A stretch of 64,000 nucleotides of DNA from Geobacter sp. DSM 9736. Lineage in GTDB: Bacteria > Desulfobacterota > Desulfuromonadia > Geobacterales > Geobacteraceae. A program made the position numbers and the translations under genes. Under the pieces are notes generated by a model. It was not told the origin of the DNA. It ran no database searches and saw only the letters and a list, made by a program, of their open reading frames with translations. Below are positions 41,187 through 54,519 of the stretch, piece by piece. Position 1 is the stretch's first letter; each line of letters starts with the position of its first letter. The stretch is from NCBI RefSeq assembly GCF_900187405.1, contig NZ_LT896716.1, forward strand, positions 1,612,001-1,676,000. Reading direction: 5' to 3'.

Positions 41187-42510
41187 AGCAGGTCGTGCAT
41201 CCAACGGCCACCGTCTGGAACGTTACCAGGCAACCCGCGGGATACGGGGCCCATGGAACCTGGAAGGCACTGCCGCCACCGGCTTTGACGGAGTGGTGGC
41301 TATCCCTGCCCTCGCGGAAAGCAAGTATCTTTTTGACACACTCTCATCACTCGCGGGGAACCCTCCCGATATACTTAACAGATTCCTTGTAATGGTTGTA
41401 GTCAACCATCGGGCCGATGCTCCCCTCGGCGACAGGGAAGATAACAGAATAACCCTGGAACGGCTGCGTAAAGGAGACCACGGGGGAATCCCGAATCTCG
41501 CGTGGGTGGACGCCTGCTGCAGGGGGAAAGAGCTTCCGGAAAAGCGCGGAGGAGTCGGGATGGCACGAAAACTCGGCTTCGACCTCGCCTTCTGCCGGCT
41601 CAACCTTGACCAGGACCCGATCCTAATCGCCCTGGATGGCGACACCATCGTCCGCCCCGATTATCTGCCGGCTGTCCTGGACCACTTCATGGCATCGCCC
41701 TACGGGGGCGCCGTCATCCCCTTTCGGCATCAGGAAACCGACATGCCGCAGCGACAACTGGCCATCCACCGATATGAGCTGTTCCTGCGCGCCTACGTTC
41801 TCGGGCTTTCCCTCGCCGGCTCCCCTTATGCCTTCCATACAGTCGGCAGCGCAATGGCATGCAGGCTATCCGCCTATCTTAAAGTAGGAGGCATGAACGT
41901 CCGTAATGCAGGGGAAGATTTCTATTTCCTCCAGCAGCTTTACAGGACAGCAGGAATATCAGAGGTCAAGGGCACGGTCGTCTACCCCTCCCCCCGCCCC
42001 TCCCATCGCGTCCCGTTCGGCACGGGACGCAGCGTTGCGCGTCTTCTGTCGGAAGAGCAGGATGCCGTCCGTTTCTACCCCGCACCCTGCTTCCGGATAC
42101 TGGCCGGGTGGCTGTCGCTGGTTGAAGGGCATCCGGATGCCCCGGGTGATCTCCTCATGAGACGTGCGGCGAAAATTTCCCCGGATTTGCCCCATTATCT
42201 CGATGGAATCGATTTTCCCGAGACTTGGAAGCGGCTGCAACGTAATCACCCGACTCAGCAATTTCTCCTGAATGCTTTTCACGGCTGGTTCGACGGGTTG
42301 CGGACAATGAAGCTCATACATTATCTCACAGCCGGCCCATTCCTCCGCTGCGAGCCGGAATGTGCACTTCCCGATCTGTTCCGATGGGCGGGCCTTCCCC
42401 CGGTCTCGGGTATACAGGACCAGCTTGCCATCCTGCGCAGCCACCAGCTGGGAAAGCTCGACGTTCCACTGGTACCACCTGTCATGGTCTGTAGCCATGT
42501 TTGCCCTTGA
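41179..42510 (+). CDS. Glycosyltransferase-like protein (GT2 fold)
   Basis: A 443-residue protein with a GT-A layout: an N-terminal VVAIPALAES strand, the nucleotide-sugar DxD-like ALDGDT (about 155), and NAGEDFYFLQQL (about 240), as in family 2 transferases. No membrane segment is obvious. Substrate unknown. It is coupled to miaA by an 8-nt overlap and is followed after 65 nt by the gspA-like gene. Confidence 0.75.
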   Translation: MPEAGRASNGHRLERYQATRGIRGPWNLEGTAATGFDGVVAIPALAESKYLFDTLSSLAGNPPDILNRFLVMVVVNHRADAPLGDREDNRITLERLRKGDHGGIPNLAWVDACCRGKELPEKRGGVGMARKLGFDLAFCRLNLDQDPILIALDGDTIVRPDYLPAVLDHFMASPYGGAVIPFRHQETDMPQRQLAIHRYELFLRAYVLGLSLAGSPYAFHTVGSAMACRLSAYLKVGGMNVRNAGEDFYFLQQLYRTAGISEVKGTVVYPSPRPSHRVPFGTGRSVARLLSEEQDAVRFYPAPCFRILAGWLSLVEGHPDAPGDLLMRRAAKISPDLPHYLDGIDFPETWKRLQRNHPTQQFLLNAFHGWFDGLRTMKLIHYLTAGPFLRCEPECALPDLFRWAGLPPVSGIQDQLAILRSHQLGKLDVPLVPPVMVCSHVCP

Positions 42511-42575
42511 GGAACGTCCCTGTTTGTGGAATAGTTAACCAGCGTCACCACTCAACCCTGGGAACGAAGCGAGCG

Positions 42576-44195
42576 ATGTATCAGGAATTTTACGGCTTCA
42601 AGGAAAAACCGTTCACCATTACCCCGAACCCGCGTTTTATCTTCCTCAGCAAGCATCACCGTGAAGCCTTTGCGCATCTGCTCTACGGTATAGATCAGCA
42701 TGCAGGATTCATCGGACTGATCGGCGAGGTAGGCTCGGGGAAGACGACGGTGCTGCGCGCGCTTCTGAACCAGCTCGCCGATGATCGTTACAGGACCGCC
42801 TTCATCTTCAATCCGTGCCTCTCCGCCCATGAGCTCCTACGCTCCATAAACAAGGAATACGGCATTCGGGGCGAGGGCTTGAGCATCGCTGAACTGCACG
42901 AGGAGCTCAACAGGTTTCTACTGACTGAAAATGCCGCTGGTCGGACTGTGGTGCTCGTAATCGACGAGGCCCAGAACCTGGAAAGCCAGGTCCTGGAGCA
43001 GATACGCCTGATCTCGAACCTCGAGACCGAAACCGACAAACTGATCCAGATCATTCTCGCAGGGCAACCCGAGCTTGGGTCCCTCCTGGAACAGCCCAGG
43101 CTGCGGCAGCTTGCCCAGCGAATCTCCGTAAGGTATCAGCTTCTCCCGATGGACCAGGAAGACACTGGAGCCTATATCGCTCACCGGCTGGAAGTTGCCG
43201 GTGGCTGGCGGGCGGCCGAATTCGCCCCCCGGGCGGTGAAACTCATCTATAACTACACCAAGGGATTGCCGCGCCTCATCAACATCGCATGCGACCGCGC
43301 CCTTCTCATCGGCTTCACCGAAGAGAGCAGGACGATCACCCCGGCTATTGCCGCCGAAGCGATCCGGGAGCTCACCCGGAGCAGCTCAGGTATGCGCCTG
43401 CCACGAGGCAGAAAGCTCGCGGGACTCCTGTTTCTCCTCCTCCTGACTGGTGCCGTGTGGTACGCCGGAACGCGAATCGAATCGGGCAAGGCATCCTCTT
43501 CCGAGCATGAGCGATCTCCTGCGGCTACAAGAGATGCAGCCCTGCCTGCATCCTTTGTTTCGGCGCAACAAGCAAAGTCGGAACAGTCGAGCGCGATAGC
43601 CGCATTCAACGTACTCGCTGCACTATGGCAGGCTCCCCCCGTCATCGGGTTCACCGGAGGCATCGACTCCAGGACTCTTGAAAAGCTGTCCGCGGAGCGA
43701 GGTTTGAGCGTCCTGTACTTTACGGGAAACATCGAGCGCCTCCTGAGTTACGACGCGCCGGCACTTCTGCAGGTTTCGGTGCCGGGACTAAAGGAAGGCC
43801 GCTTCGTTGCAGTTGCAGCACTTGGGAAGGGCATGGTGCGACTGGAAGGCACAGGAGGTCCCGTTACCGTAACAAAGGAGCAACTACAAAACCTGTGGAA
43901 GGGGCAGGCCTACCTGCTCTGGAAAAACGTCTCGGGAGTACCCCTTCTTCCTTCTGCCGGGACACGGAGCGGAGGAATCATGCGCCTCCAGGCGCTGCTT
44001 CGGAACGCAGGCGCCTACACCGGCCCCCATACAGGTGTGTACGACGCGCCTACCACTGCTGCCGTGAAGGCCTTTCAGAAAACGCAGGGGATAACGGTGG
44101 ACGGAAAAGCGGGAGCCGAAACACTTCTTTTCCTTCACCGCGCTGCGGGGTATCCTCAACCACGTCTGCAGAAGGGAGCACGCGAAACATCATGA
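42576..44195 (+). CDS. GspA/ExeA-type ATPase with peptidoglycan-binding domain
   Basis: The 539-residue protein has the ExeA N-terminus (MYQEFYGFKEKPF), a Walker A GEVGSGKTT and Walker B LVIDEAQN, a single membrane segment (about 278-296), and a C-terminal peptidoglycan-binding domain (about 470-525). ExeA with ExeB helps type II secretins assemble across the wall. The upstream frame to 42501 has no site; the ATG at 42576 is chosen. The stop overlaps gspB by four bases (ATGA). Confidence 0.92.
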   Translation: MYQEFYGFKEKPFTITPNPRFIFLSKHHREAFAHLLYGIDQHAGFIGLIGEVGSGKTTVLRALLNQLADDRYRTAFIFNPCLSAHELLRSINKEYGIRGEGLSIAELHEELNRFLLTENAAGRTVVLVIDEAQNLESQVLEQIRLISNLETETDKLIQIILAGQPELGSLLEQPRLRQLAQRISVRYQLLPMDQEDTGAYIAHRLEVAGGWRAAEFAPRAVKLIYNYTKGLPRLINIACDRALLIGFTEESRTITPAIAAEAIRELTRSSSGMRLPRGRKLAGLLFLLLLTGAVWYAGTRIESGKASSSEHERSPAATRDAALPASFVSAQQAKSEQSSAIAAFNVLAALWQAPPVIGFTGGIDSRTLEKLSAERGLSVLYFTGNIERLLSYDAPALLQVSVPGLKEGRFVAVAALGKGMVRLEGTGGPVTVTKEQLQNLWKGQAYLLWKNVSGVPLLPSAGTRSGGIMRLQALLRNAGAYTGPHTGVYDAPTTAAVKAFQKTQGITVDGKAGAETLLFLHRAAGYPQPRLQKGARETS

Positions 44196-44899
44196 GCTCC
44201 ATCCTCAAGGCTTTGAAGAAACTGGAACAGGAGAAATCGACCCGTAAACCGCACATGCCGGACCTTGCGGGAGCGGTCCTGAAAGGGGAACGCCCGGCAG
44301 GGCCCCGTCGATGGCTTATTCCCGTAGCCATGTCCATGGTTGCCGTAGCAGCTGCTGCCGTGACCTACTTCGTAATGAAACATATCCCGGCTCCACTCAC
44401 GCAGCCCGCGACCATCGCTGTTGCGGTGCCGTCTGCCGCGCCTTCTCCTGAGGCGGCAGGCGTACTGCATGCCGTTCCCGCTCCGCCGGATAAATCTCTG
44501 GCCGTTCCCCCGTTACCGGCAAAATCAGAGAAAGTACCTCCTCGTGCGGCCAAGGCAACGACACATCTCGTAACCGACTCTCTGAAAACGGGATTAAAGC
44601 CTGCAGCTCCGGAACCTTTTGCAACACGCCCCCGGGAAGGTGTCACCATGCAGGAGCCGGCGCAAACCATTTCGGTTGCAGCGACGCCACAGAAGAGTGA
44701 TGACTCCCCCAGCATCAGGATAAGCGGCATAGCCTGGCAGAAGGACAGCTCAAGCAGGTATGCCGTGGTAAATGGAAGGGCCGTGGGAGAAGGCGCCATT
44801 GTAGAAGGTGCGAAGGTAGAGGAGATATTGCCGGACAAGGTCCGCTTCTCCAGCGGAAGCGGAACGTTCGAGGTCCATCTCGGCCCGCCCGGCACTTAG
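44192..44899 (+). CDS. GspB-type secretion partner protein
   Basis: A 235-residue protein starting with the GspB-like MSSILKALKKLEQEK, a membrane helix (about 46-64), a Pro/Ala-rich linker and a C-terminal GspB domain (ISGIAWQKDSSSRYAVVNG). It is the expected partner of the GspA-like ATPase; no type II secretion core genes are in the window. The longer frame starting at 43895 is out of keeping with this N-terminus. Confidence 0.9.
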   Translation: MSSILKALKKLEQEKSTRKPHMPDLAGAVLKGERPAGPRRWLIPVAMSMVAVAAAAVTYFVMKHIPAPLTQPATIAVAVPSAAPSPEAAGVLHAVPAPPDKSLAVPPLPAKSEKVPPRAAKATTHLVTDSLKTGLKPAAPEPFATRPREGVTMQEPAQTISVAATPQKSDDSPSIRISGIAWQKDSSSRYAVVNGRAVGEGAIVEGAKVEEILPDKVRFSSGSGTFEVHLGPPGT

Positions 44900-48680: not shown

Positions 48681-48767
48681 GCCGAAGTGGTGGAATTGGT
48701 AGACACGCAAGATTCAGGTTCTTGTGCGGGCAACCGTGTGCTGGTTCGAGTCCAGTCTTCGGCACCA
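48681..48767 (+). tRNA. tRNA-Leu (anticodon CAG)
   Basis: The acceptor stem GCCGAAG pairs with CTTCGGC, followed by discriminator A and an encoded CCA. The anticodon arm is CAAGA-TTCAGGT-TCTTG (anticodon CAG), and a long variable arm and GGTTCGAGTCC T-arm are present, as in class II tRNA-Leu. Confidence 0.97.
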
Positions 48768-49017: not shown

Positions 49018-50865
49018 ATGGGACCGCTTGCCCGCCCCAGTCTTCTACGGATTCTGCCGTTTCTAGCCATTGCACTGCTTTCGGGTGCTCTGGCTGCATG
49101 CGCTGCCTTCGAAGATCTGAGAAACAGGGCTTCACTCCTCGCCGGGTCACTCACCGGCTTCAAATGCCTCGTGGCATCGGTTGGCCCGTGCTTCCCCTGC
49201 GGCATCAAGGCATCCGACATTACCATGTGCTCCACGTCAGGGATACCACTGTTCCAGGCAAAGGAGCTACGTACACAGGTCAATCTGCTCCGTTACCTGC
49301 ACGGGAACACCAGACCCGGTGACCTCTTCGATACCCTTTACGGTGATCAGGTAAAGCTGACCCTGCTCCGGAATGAACGGGGAGAGTGGGAGTTCCCCCG
49401 GATTCCTACTCCGCAGAGAATCCGCAGTTCCGGACAAGAGGGTAAAGCTTTTCCCCGCCGGTTGTTGTTCACGAACGTCACCATCCTGATCAAAACAGCG
49501 ACAGGAGAGTCAATGAGCTTCTACAAGAGCGTGGAAGCCGAAGTTGGTCCCGGCAGAGAATCCGTACGGCTGAAGCTCTCGGGAATGAACAAGTCGGCGA
49601 CGATAACGTTCACCAGAGGAGCAGTCAAACAGTACGAACTGCAGGCGGACAACTTCTCGACGGCACTCCTTGCGCCGGTATCTACCTCCCCTCTCCCCTT
49701 CGAAAAACTCGTGGTAGACGGCAATCTGAAAGTCGCCACGAGTGACGATAAAAACTTCGCCATCGAAGGGAGCGGCAAGGTCACGGCCCGAGGCCTCAGC
49801 TGCCCGGTCGTATCTTCCGGAACGATAGATGCCTTGAGCCTCCCCTTTGACCTGAAGGGTAATCTTACCGGCTCCGGAATCGAGAGCCTGGCCGCAAAAA
49901 TCAGCTTGGGAGGTGAAACCGCCATTGTCAGGGGGAGCATGCGGGGATGGAAAGAACCGGTGGTGGATCTGACGGTGGCCTTTCAGAATTTCTCCTATGA
50001 CAGGGCAATCTCTGCCTTACCCCCATCACTTCATCCGGACCTGCCGGTTATCAGGCTCTCCGGCAGTATGACGGGGACGTTCAGGATGCATCTGGACACG
50101 GCGAATCCCGACAGCCTGGACTACAGCTACTCCGGCCGCACAGACCGGCTGGAGATCCTGGACCTGGGACAGGAGATCGACATCAATCGCCTCAGGGGCC
50201 CTTTCCTCCACAACGTAAGGATAAGGCCGGGAAAACAAACCACGATACTGCTCAGCCCGGCTAACCCGTATTTCACGCCCTACCATAATATCCCTTTCTC
50301 CCTCAAAAGCGCGGTGATGGCGACGGAGGATTCGGGTTTCTTTTCCCACAGGGGGTTCAGCACACGGCATATCAGGGGCTCGTTGATTGATAACCTGAAA
50401 GCCGGCAAGGTCGTGCGTGGCGCCAGTACCATCTCCATGCAGCTGGCAAAAAATCTTTTCCTGTCGACTGAAAGGACGTTGAGCCGCAAACTGGAGGAGG
50501 CGCTCATCACCGTGGCCCTCGAGCAGAACCTCGACAAGAAGCGGATAATGGAAATCTACCTGAACATTATCGAGTGGGGGGACGGCATTTACGGCATAGG
50601 CCAGGCCTCGCACTACTATTTCGGCAAGAGCCCTTTCGAGCTGTCACCGGTGGAGTCGGCCTTTCTCGCATCCATAATAGCCCGTCCGAGAAACTGGCGC
50701 CCGGATCCTCTTCCCAGGTTGGGCCAGGGGTGGCGAAACTACCTACAGGTCATTCTCTTCAAGATGTACCAGATGGGAGGGGCAGATTTTGAAGATCTGC
50801 TCTACGCAGGGGTTTTTGAATCGAGCACTGATGGGCTGAGCGAAAGAAACTGGGGCAGGCCGTGA
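49018..50865 (+). CDS. Monofunctional GT51 transglycosylase with large N-terminal domain
   Basis: A 615-residue protein: signal or anchor (about 10-28), a beta-rich region of about 380 residues resembling AsmA-type repeats, then a GT51 domain from about 420 (catalytic ATEDSGFFSHRGF, GASTISMQLAKNLFL, EIYLNIIEWG). It polymerises lipid II glycan strands; there is no transpeptidase domain. The large N-terminal region is unlike normal monofunctional or class A enzymes. Ribosome site weak. Confidence 0.88.
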   Translation: MGPLARPSLLRILPFLAIALLSGALAACAAFEDLRNRASLLAGSLTGFKCLVASVGPCFPCGIKASDITMCSTSGIPLFQAKELRTQVNLLRYLHGNTRPGDLFDTLYGDQVKLTLLRNERGEWEFPRIPTPQRIRSSGQEGKAFPRRLLFTNVTILIKTATGESMSFYKSVEAEVGPGRESVRLKLSGMNKSATITFTRGAVKQYELQADNFSTALLAPVSTSPLPFEKLVVDGNLKVATSDDKNFAIEGSGKVTARGLSCPVVSSGTIDALSLPFDLKGNLTGSGIESLAAKISLGGETAIVRGSMRGWKEPVVDLTVAFQNFSYDRAISALPPSLHPDLPVIRLSGSMTGTFRMHLDTANPDSLDYSYSGRTDRLEILDLGQEIDINRLRGPFLHNVRIRPGKQTTILLSPANPYFTPYHNIPFSLKSAVMATEDSGFFSHRGFSTRHIRGSLIDNLKAGKVVRGASTISMQLAKNLFLSTERTLSRKLEEALITVALEQNLDKKRIMEIYLNIIEWGDGIYGIGQASHYYFGKSPFELSPVESAFLASIIARPRNWRPDPLPRLGQGWRNYLQVILFKMYQMGGADFEDLLYAGVFESSTDGLSERNWGRP

Positions 50866-53729: not shown

Positions 53730-54302
53730 TTACCCCCTCGTCTTCTTCCTCGCCTCCAAACGCGCCTTCGTCATACGCTCCCGCAAGCCCCCTTCCTTCA
53801 GGAAAGCCTGCTCCAGCTGCTTCAGCTGCCTATCAAGCAAGTAGTTCGTCTGGTGAATCAGGCAAATGATTATGTTGGCCACAATCTCAGGGGGGCGGGT
53901 TTCCACAAAGGACTTATAGGTCTCATAGGACTCATGGGTCCCATGGGACTGTTCTCTCCCCAATCTTCGGACATACTGCGCCTCTCTGCTCTCTTTGTCC
54001 CAAAGATTCGCGCCCCGTGTCCTCAGGAAATCCCAATAATCCGCCAGCAGCTCTTCAAGGCTCGCCCGCGCTACGTTGGTCAGCTTTATCTCGGTTTCCT
54101 TCGAGGTAGCAGAAGCCATGCTCCCTTCGATGATGTTCTGCTTGCCGGACCGCGCAGCCTGGACCATCTGGTCATGGGTGCGTGAGCGACGGTCGACGAA
54201 TCGCTCGCAGAAGGACACGGTGGCGTCGTATACAATCTCCGCCTTCCGGTAGGAGAGCAGTTTCTGGTAGCCGCCATGCGGCGGGATGAAACCTTCGGTC
54301 AT
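53730..54302 (-). CDS. Four-helix-bundle (S23-like suffix) protein
   Basis: A 190-residue protein with the four-helix-bundle pattern (SYRKAEIVYDAT...RTHDQMVQAARS..NIIEG) known from 23S rRNA intervening sequences and free homologues. I choose the ATG at 54302 behind GGAGGAG; the longer frame is unlikely. Function unknown. It lies amid gene fragments. Confidence 0.78.
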   Translation of the reverse strand: MTEGFIPPHGGYQKLLSYRKAEIVYDATVSFCERFVDRRSRTHDQMVQAARSGKQNIIEGSMASATSKETEIKLTNVARASLEELLADYWDFLRTRGANLWDKESREAQYVRRLGREQSHGTHESYETYKSFVETRPPEIVANIIICLIHQTNYLLDRQLKQLEQAFLKEGGLRERMTKARLEARKKTRG

Positions 54303-54324
54303 TGAAAGTCTCCTCCTGGAAGGA

Positions 54325-54519
54325 CTATAAAACCGAGCCGAACGCCCCCTGCTTTCTCCGCCGGCCTCGGTGGCTACCGTCGAGGTGCGTATCCAGAGGA
54401 AACAGCCCATTCGGACCGGGCATCTTTTCAGTTGTGGATGAAAACTCCGCTTCGTAGCACTGCATGAGCATGTCGAAAGCAGCTCGGTTATCATCATCAA
54501 TGGGGACGATCCTGATCAT
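54325..54519 (-). pseudogene. Truncated GNAT-type acetyltransferase
   Basis: A 64-codon frame with an excellent ribosome site (AGGAGGAAAG) starts like a GNAT protein (MIRIVPIDDDN..., YEAEF, GLFPLDTHLDGSHRG) then loses the acetyl-CoA-binding half. It probably represents the broken start of a former gene. Confidence 0.5.

Follow-up and report, generated by a model that had tools for sequence, protein, structure and literature searches.

A predicted GT51 peptidoglycan glycosyltransferase joined to a half-length AsmA-like arm in Geobacter sp. DSM 9736, with scattered relatives in bacteria and on viral contigs

Monofunctional peptidoglycan glycosyltransferases of the MtgA/MGT type (TIGR02070, PF00912) carry an N-terminal membrane helix and a GT51 domain and have no transpeptidase, and the prevailing view is that peptidoglycan polymerases take up lipid II straight from the membrane. 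AsmA-like proteins (AsmA, YhdP, TamB, YdbH, DUF748) also begin with an N-terminal membrane helix, which is followed by a beta-rich arm, and one short protein of this kind, GspN of type II secretion, has been proposed to shield cargo that carries a lipid anchor, or to extract it (excerpt of PMC12802150). Here we describe a gene that joins elements of both, located in a 64,000-nucleotide stretch of the Geobacter sp. DSM 9736 chromosome (NCBI RefSeq GCF_900187405.1, contig NZ_LT896716.1, forward-strand positions 1,612,001 to 1,676,000), hereafter the window, in whose numbering all positions are given. The gene occupies 49018..50865 on the plus strand and encodes, from ATG to stop, a protein of 615 amino acids (P0001) in which one N-terminal membrane helix is followed by a mostly beta arm of about 345 residues and then by a GT51 domain. 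These three parts and their order come directly from the sequence or the structure model, as do most conserved catalytic positions and the AsmA homology of the bacterial arms.

The GT51 module covers residues 391–600 (50188..50817, plus strand). PF00912 matched residues 415–563 with 170.3 bits (cut-off 27), and the same family was matched by 17/17 and 29/29 of the relatives scanned; otherwise Pfam gave for P0001 one sub-threshold chance match. An AlphaFold2 model calculated with 45 sequences (pLDDT 86.6, pTM 0.79), replacing an earlier one from five rows that was discarded (pLDDT 36.1), placed a helix at residues 8–46, strands at 49–412 and then the helical GT51 part, with residues 132–140 poorly predicted. 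Over residues 410–600 the model has the solved GT51 fold, as judged against 3nb6 (Foldseek E 8.9e-12; Z 20.5, rmsd 2.7 over 181 residues), and the hairpin segment that leads the module is also present in unfused GT51 sequences. No transpeptidase domain was found by Pfam or NCBIfam, and only 52 residues follow the GT51 match, so P0001 is not a class A penicillin-binding protein. Nor does it belong to the MtgA equivalog: the 13 GT51-type NCBIfam models listed for it all scored under their own cut-offs, the best being TIGR02070 with 174.7 against 182.65. The original prediction, made from the letters of the window, had placed the GT51 motifs near residue 420 behind a beta-rich region lacking a transpeptidase, and this layout was borne out. 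Its further statement that the enzyme resembles no standard class is right as far as class A and MtgA membership are concerned and too strong for the GT51 module and its fold, which are conventional; what is unusual is the arm together with alterations in motifs I and II.

These alterations were located using the residue numbering of the Staphylococcus aureus enzyme SaMGT, taken from an excerpt of PMC6053601. Motif I lies at residues 437–448 (50326..50361, plus strand), with E437 at the Glu100 position and S448 at that of Asp111; E437, D438, H444 and G446 were invariant across the 45 aligned rows. Motif II (residues 467–479, 50416..50454, plus strand) carries M474 (50437-50439) at the Gln136 position. 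In the motif III region (residues 490–494, RKLEE, 50485..50499, plus strand) R490, K491 and E494 were invariant in the same rows, and in the second conserved Glu motif (residues 512–516, EIYLN, 50551..50565, plus strand) Y514 was invariant while E512 and N516 were kept in at least 90%. Eleven of 13 SaMGT positions checked are retained in P0001, including Glu100, Asp101, His107, Lys140, Asn141, Arg148 and Lys153, and two are changed (Gln136 to M474 and Phe150 to L488); further substitutions are Asp111 to S448, Gly131 to A469 and Gln129 to R467. The substitutions at Gly131 and Gln129 are frequent among unfused enzymes too: 37/62 have Ala at the former position and 53/62 Arg at the latter (93 unfused loci were collected, two of which gave no pattern match, and residue counts use 62). 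By contrast, the Gln136 position is Met in 1/62 unfused enzymes and in 17/17 bacterial fusions (a set collected with whole-protein or arm profiles), in family member P0002, in the gut-contig protein L230 and in 36/37 distinct proteins from viral contigs, although this last count is biased, as each viral-contig scan used two peptides, one with MQ in it. At the Asp111 position none of the 17 bacterial fusions has Asp (16 Ser, 1 Asn) and P0002 has Ile; Asp is found there in 4/37 phage-contig proteins versus 55/62 unfused ones. Judged by profile, fold and the remaining motifs, P0001 thus appears to be a variant within GT51 rather than a standard member, with predicted activity.

The arm (residues 47–390, 49156..50187, plus strand) was assigned at the level of the family. 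With P0001 alone, no AsmA-type Pfam model matched at E values up to 1, and the curated cut-offs (AsmA, YhdP, DUF748) were not reached; single relatives also remained below the AsmA-clan cut-offs (24.2/50, 22.1 and 19.4/46, 13.6/50, 11.8/29.8). Sub-threshold matches nevertheless recurred among 17 bacterial members scanned at E up to 1 (DUF748 in eight, YhdP in five, AsmA in two, best 3.4e-6), five of which also matched an unrelated phage family (best 0.0016). By hhalign, a profile built from 16 bacterial arms aligned with positions 42–390 of an 801-position AsmA profile with probability 99.2 and a score of 159.7, compared to a mean of 17.2 and a maximum of 24.7 in 40 column shuffles; the AsmA profile was built from 12 AsmA-type proteins (of 24 loci listed) that had been fetched with the fusion arm as query, a choice that favours a match. 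These comparisons support the view that the bacterial arms are homologous to AsmA proteins in their N-terminal half, and the AsmA-like label of the original prediction holds for the family. The fold of the arm is less telling. Apolipoprotein B matched it with Z 8.9, porin-like barrels with about 8, LPD-3 with Z 8.2 (E 3.7e-3) and the N-terminus of Atg2 with Z 7.2; another match was a chorein-type protein of viral origin (E 8.4e-5). Values near 8 for a modelled arm are not decisive.

Ahead of the arm, a helix at residues 8–46 (49039..49155, plus strand), seen in the model, contains a hydrophobic membrane anchor at about residues 12–30. Kyte-Doolittle hydropathy peaked at 2.27 at residue 12, and no 19-residue window starting beyond residue 60 exceeded 1.4. 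A lipoprotein signal was also considered, as P0001 and its relative L035 have a LAAC-like box; of four close relatives, three (L036–L038) have Phe or Tyr in place of the Cys, so the N-terminus was taken as an anchor.

The same fusion was found elsewhere in the order, in another class, in Parabacteroides distasonis, on a human-gut contig and on viral contigs. A search of genome contigs with P0001 alone revealed no relative. With the arm, four full fusions and a partial one were detected in the same order and none in the rest of its own family, in which the fusion is present in 1/48 genomes. A six-row profile gave matches in 8/141 genomes of the order: six belong to the fusion family, one of them cut off at a contig end, and the other two are weak (E 0.002–0.003, in frames of 1205 and 1240 residues). 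Four of the loci in the order could be assigned a source: Pelotalea chapellei DSM 13688 (Geobacterales) for one and metagenome bins for three. In a phylum sample of 395 genomes, with three candidates scored in most of them, genome G428 and that of strain DSM 9736 were the only ones with a fusion among the matches listed, and the class of G428 contained it in 12/155 genomes (12/149 in another scan). The P. distasonis protein WP_121956505.1 (652 amino acids, annotated as 'biosynthetic peptidoglycan transglycosylase') is about 25% identical to P0001 and matches DUF748 at residues 3–142 (E 1.1e-5) and GT51 at 433–582. The fusion on human-gut contig L230 (MT836802.1) pairs with it, the two GT51 parts being 61% identical. 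L230, which also has efflux and MsrA-like genes, and L241 (MW495066.1), with glyS and gatD, are filed as phages, and both records are probably bacterial DNA within a phage collection.

Within the order, sequence distances and distribution give signs of horizontal transfer of this scattered family. For the GT51 part, comparing the window gene with its counterparts in three carriers from another family of the order gave synonymous distances of 0.57, 0.84 and 1.01, while an unfused GT51 gene of the same genome gave 2.11 or saturation against five genomes of that other family and saturation against eight of its own; the five genomes differ from the fusion carriers, the contrast being large nonetheless. 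Together with these low distances, carriage by 1/48 genomes of its own family and the absence of a neighbour common across lineages led us to propose transfer. A conserved operon was looked for and rejected: in 15 regions, some of them short, and with large families such as kinases and receivers set aside, genes were common only to the close pairs L232/L233, L234/L236 and L238/L240. A plasmid search with the window DNA gave 20 of 34 records listed, which match tRNA, rmuC-like or mercuric-reductase-like parts and in no case the fusion gene. Composition is unremarkable (G+C 57% in the arm, 55% in the GT51 part, 56.5% in the window). A tRNA-Leu (CAG) lies at 48681-48767 (plus strand), roughly 250 bases upstream of the gene for P0001; a transferred gene could have inserted there.

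Two scans of IMG/VR viral contigs yielded 27 and 42 loci (L117–L143 and L185–L226), spread over 44 contigs with lengths from about 9 to 619 kb and including some near-duplicates; a search of viral contigs with P0002 gave no match. Long N-terminal arms predominate: in 63/69 loci the open frame extends for 395 residues or more ahead of motif II, and the six others are cut off or shorter. The apparent shortness of L200 and L213 came from the choice of start codon. A terminase large subunit was detected in 20 of 30 viral-contig records tested (in one only at 1.3e-4) and a T4-type portal, of little help as a phage marker, in one, whereas ribosomal protein L2 matched none of the 30; the terminase model also matched 11/14 control genomes and IMG/VR records come without completeness, so that a phage origin is supported rather than proven. 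Two of the fusions have genes for dNMP kinase (phrog_139) nearby (E 1.1e-32 and 7.6e-45). We consider it likely that most of the fusion-bearing IMG/VR contigs are huge phages, in which case their GT51 proteins would possibly be wall-synthesis genes, and phages would encode enzymes that build the wall besides those that cut it. In searches of phage collections, nearly all matches among 30 of 56 records listed in each of two fell over the GT51 part, and two records inspected provided poor evidence of phage origin.

The arms on these contigs are strongly diverged, and their AsmA nature would follow through a chain of comparisons. Twenty-nine of them pooled scored 35.2 against AsmA (shuffles up to 22.3). 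The longer-arm group scored 47.0 (25 shuffles up to 19.1) and aligned with the last third of the bacterial arms at 95.2; the shorter group gave 26.3 against AsmA (shuffles up to 19.0) and 37.7 against the bacterial arms, and the two groups matched each other across the whole arm with 204.0. Pfam found in 29 phage-contig members YdbH-like in two, DUF748 in one and LmeA in one, beside many chance matches.

A GT51 tree of 71 rows (13 bacterial fusions, P0002, 30 phage-contig proteins and 27 unfused enzymes) placed the 44 family rows on one side of a branch with support 100/95, with bootstraps not fully settled and the phage-contig rows picked by a pattern requiring MQ. After addition of L224, the shorter L143 and L230, 47 family rows still lay on one side (99/94). 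Cut-off L039 was left out, L111 was omitted from alignments, and L104, L108, L110 and L111 from the tree. The nearest unfused row is a single-domain GT51 in a 275-residue frame, also with Met at the Gln136 position. L224, a fused phage-contig protein with the usual Gln (QQ), is nested inside the phage-contig Met group, and its Gln therefore looks like a reversal. The tree, which is unrooted, is consistent with a single origin of the fused GT51 domains and does not prove it. Three pairs of genes were under purifying selection, with dN/dS of 0.32–0.45 in the arm and 0.14–0.23 in GT51. A chance or mistranslated fusion is ruled out by this selection, the single open frame and the existence of relatives elsewhere.

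The reading that we favour, tentatively and with somewhat under an even chance of being right, is that P0001 is an inner-membrane lipid II polymerase without transpeptidase whose arm both places the enzyme and handles a polyprenyl lipid, catalysis and lipid binding being predicted. The N-terminal helix would anchor the protein in the inner membrane, with the half-length arm probably oriented into the periplasm and the GT51 domain polymerising lipid II at its far end. A putative hydrophobic groove in the arm may accommodate the polyprenyl tail, either of lipid II or of the carrier that remains once transfer is done; the arm would then position the enzyme and at the same time shield or feed its lipid-linked substrate. 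As an accessory gained by horizontal transfer, the protein would function on its own alongside the resident GT51 enzymes. In favour of this reading, LPD-3, Atg2 and the chorein-type viral protein are among the fold matches of the arm. The charge of the jaw flap, on average +2.06 in fusions and +1.89 in 55 unfused enzymes, suggests that the GT51 domain probably still docks on the membrane or on lipid phosphate. Scaled by residue number from YhdP and TamB (1266 and 1259 residues, excerpts of PMC8912898 and PMC11014939; published model lengths 26.8 nm and 17.8–24.6 nm, excerpt of PMC11014939), the 344-residue arm would measure about 5–7 nm. At that length it seems unable to extend as far as the outer membrane, and it could raise the enzyme above the inner membrane or lie beside it. 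Several observations weigh against the proposal. The likeness to lipid-transfer folds reaches a Z of only about 7–9, is equalled by porin-like barrels and may mean merely a common arrangement; the arm changes fast in the closest pair, L037/L038 (dN/dS 0.70 versus 0.235 in the GT51 part, on few sites); the Asp111 position is Ser; and Met replaces Gln136, the residue whose change to Glu abolished polymerisation in SaMGT (excerpt of PMC6053601).

Alternatively, the arm could serve purely as a spacer or scaffold, fixing the height at which a normal GT51 enzyme sits or binding a partner protein, with no lipid passing along it. Its weaker constraint relative to GT51, and its strong divergence in phage-contig members whose GT51 motifs are conserved, agree with such a role; its homology is, however, to a family with hydrophobic lipid grooves and not to a generic spacer. 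We regard this explanation as possible and less likely, and flap charge, arm length and the GspN precedent led us to prefer a lipid II polymerase that is active and whose arm handles lipid. The clade-wide change of Gln136 to Met and the loss of Asp111 relative to unfused enzymes would also suit a GT51 domain with another polyprenyl-linked saccharide as substrate, or a regulator in place of a polymerase. Three further GT51 loci of the DSM 9736 genome, similar to P0001 only in the catalytic part, would leave the fused domain free to diverge in this way, but most other catalytic positions tested are kept and the fused L224 has the usual Gln; we regard this reading as rather unlikely. We hold as slightly more doubtful still a mobile version of the lipid-arm polymerase, in which the groove would draw lipid-linked precursor from the inner membrane and feed it to GT51 several nanometres away near the sacculus, the motif I and II changes would fit a protein-presented substrate, and huge phages would use diverged versions of it to reshape the walls of the hosts they infect. 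Coupling of glycan synthesis to outer-membrane lipid transport, as the original prediction had suggested, is very improbable: the matched part is only the N-terminal half of AsmA, a fraction of the YhdP and TamB lengths, and ends in an enzyme; no further Pfam domain was found, nor, in the regions compared, a partner gene common across lineages, and three other open frames of this genome (680, 1115 and 1202 residues) score above the AsmA cut-off.

Elsewhere in the window, a putative ATPase gene at 42501-44195 (plus strand), whose product has a C-terminal part resembling peptidoglycan-binding domains, is followed by a gene for a proline-rich membrane protein at 43895-44899 (plus strand); the two resemble a GspA/GspB-type pair of type II secretion and may be one. 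At 53733-54497 (minus strand) an unusually long frame includes a stretch that presumably resembles four-helix-bundle proteins of the 23S rRNA intervening-sequence type.

A clade with an AsmA-type arm and alterations at positions that matter in a studied enzyme raises the questions of how fixed motifs I and II of this family are and of whether such a groove can handle polyprenyl carriers. No pointer to a fusion of an AsmA arm with GT51 was seen in the titles or abstract openings listed by searches of open-licence PMC articles. WP_121956505.1 of P. distasonis has the same architecture as P0001 under a product name that covers GT51 only. GspN is likewise AsmA-like and short, with a proposed action on lipid-anchored cargo, and no fused enzyme is described for it in the excerpt of PMC12802150. 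Relative to the AsmA-like proteins, P0001 has the N-terminal half only, the remainder being replaced by an enzyme. Compared with MtgA/MGT, it differs in the arm of about 345 residues inserted between helix and GT51, in the altered motifs I and II and in a TIGR02070 score below the cut-off.
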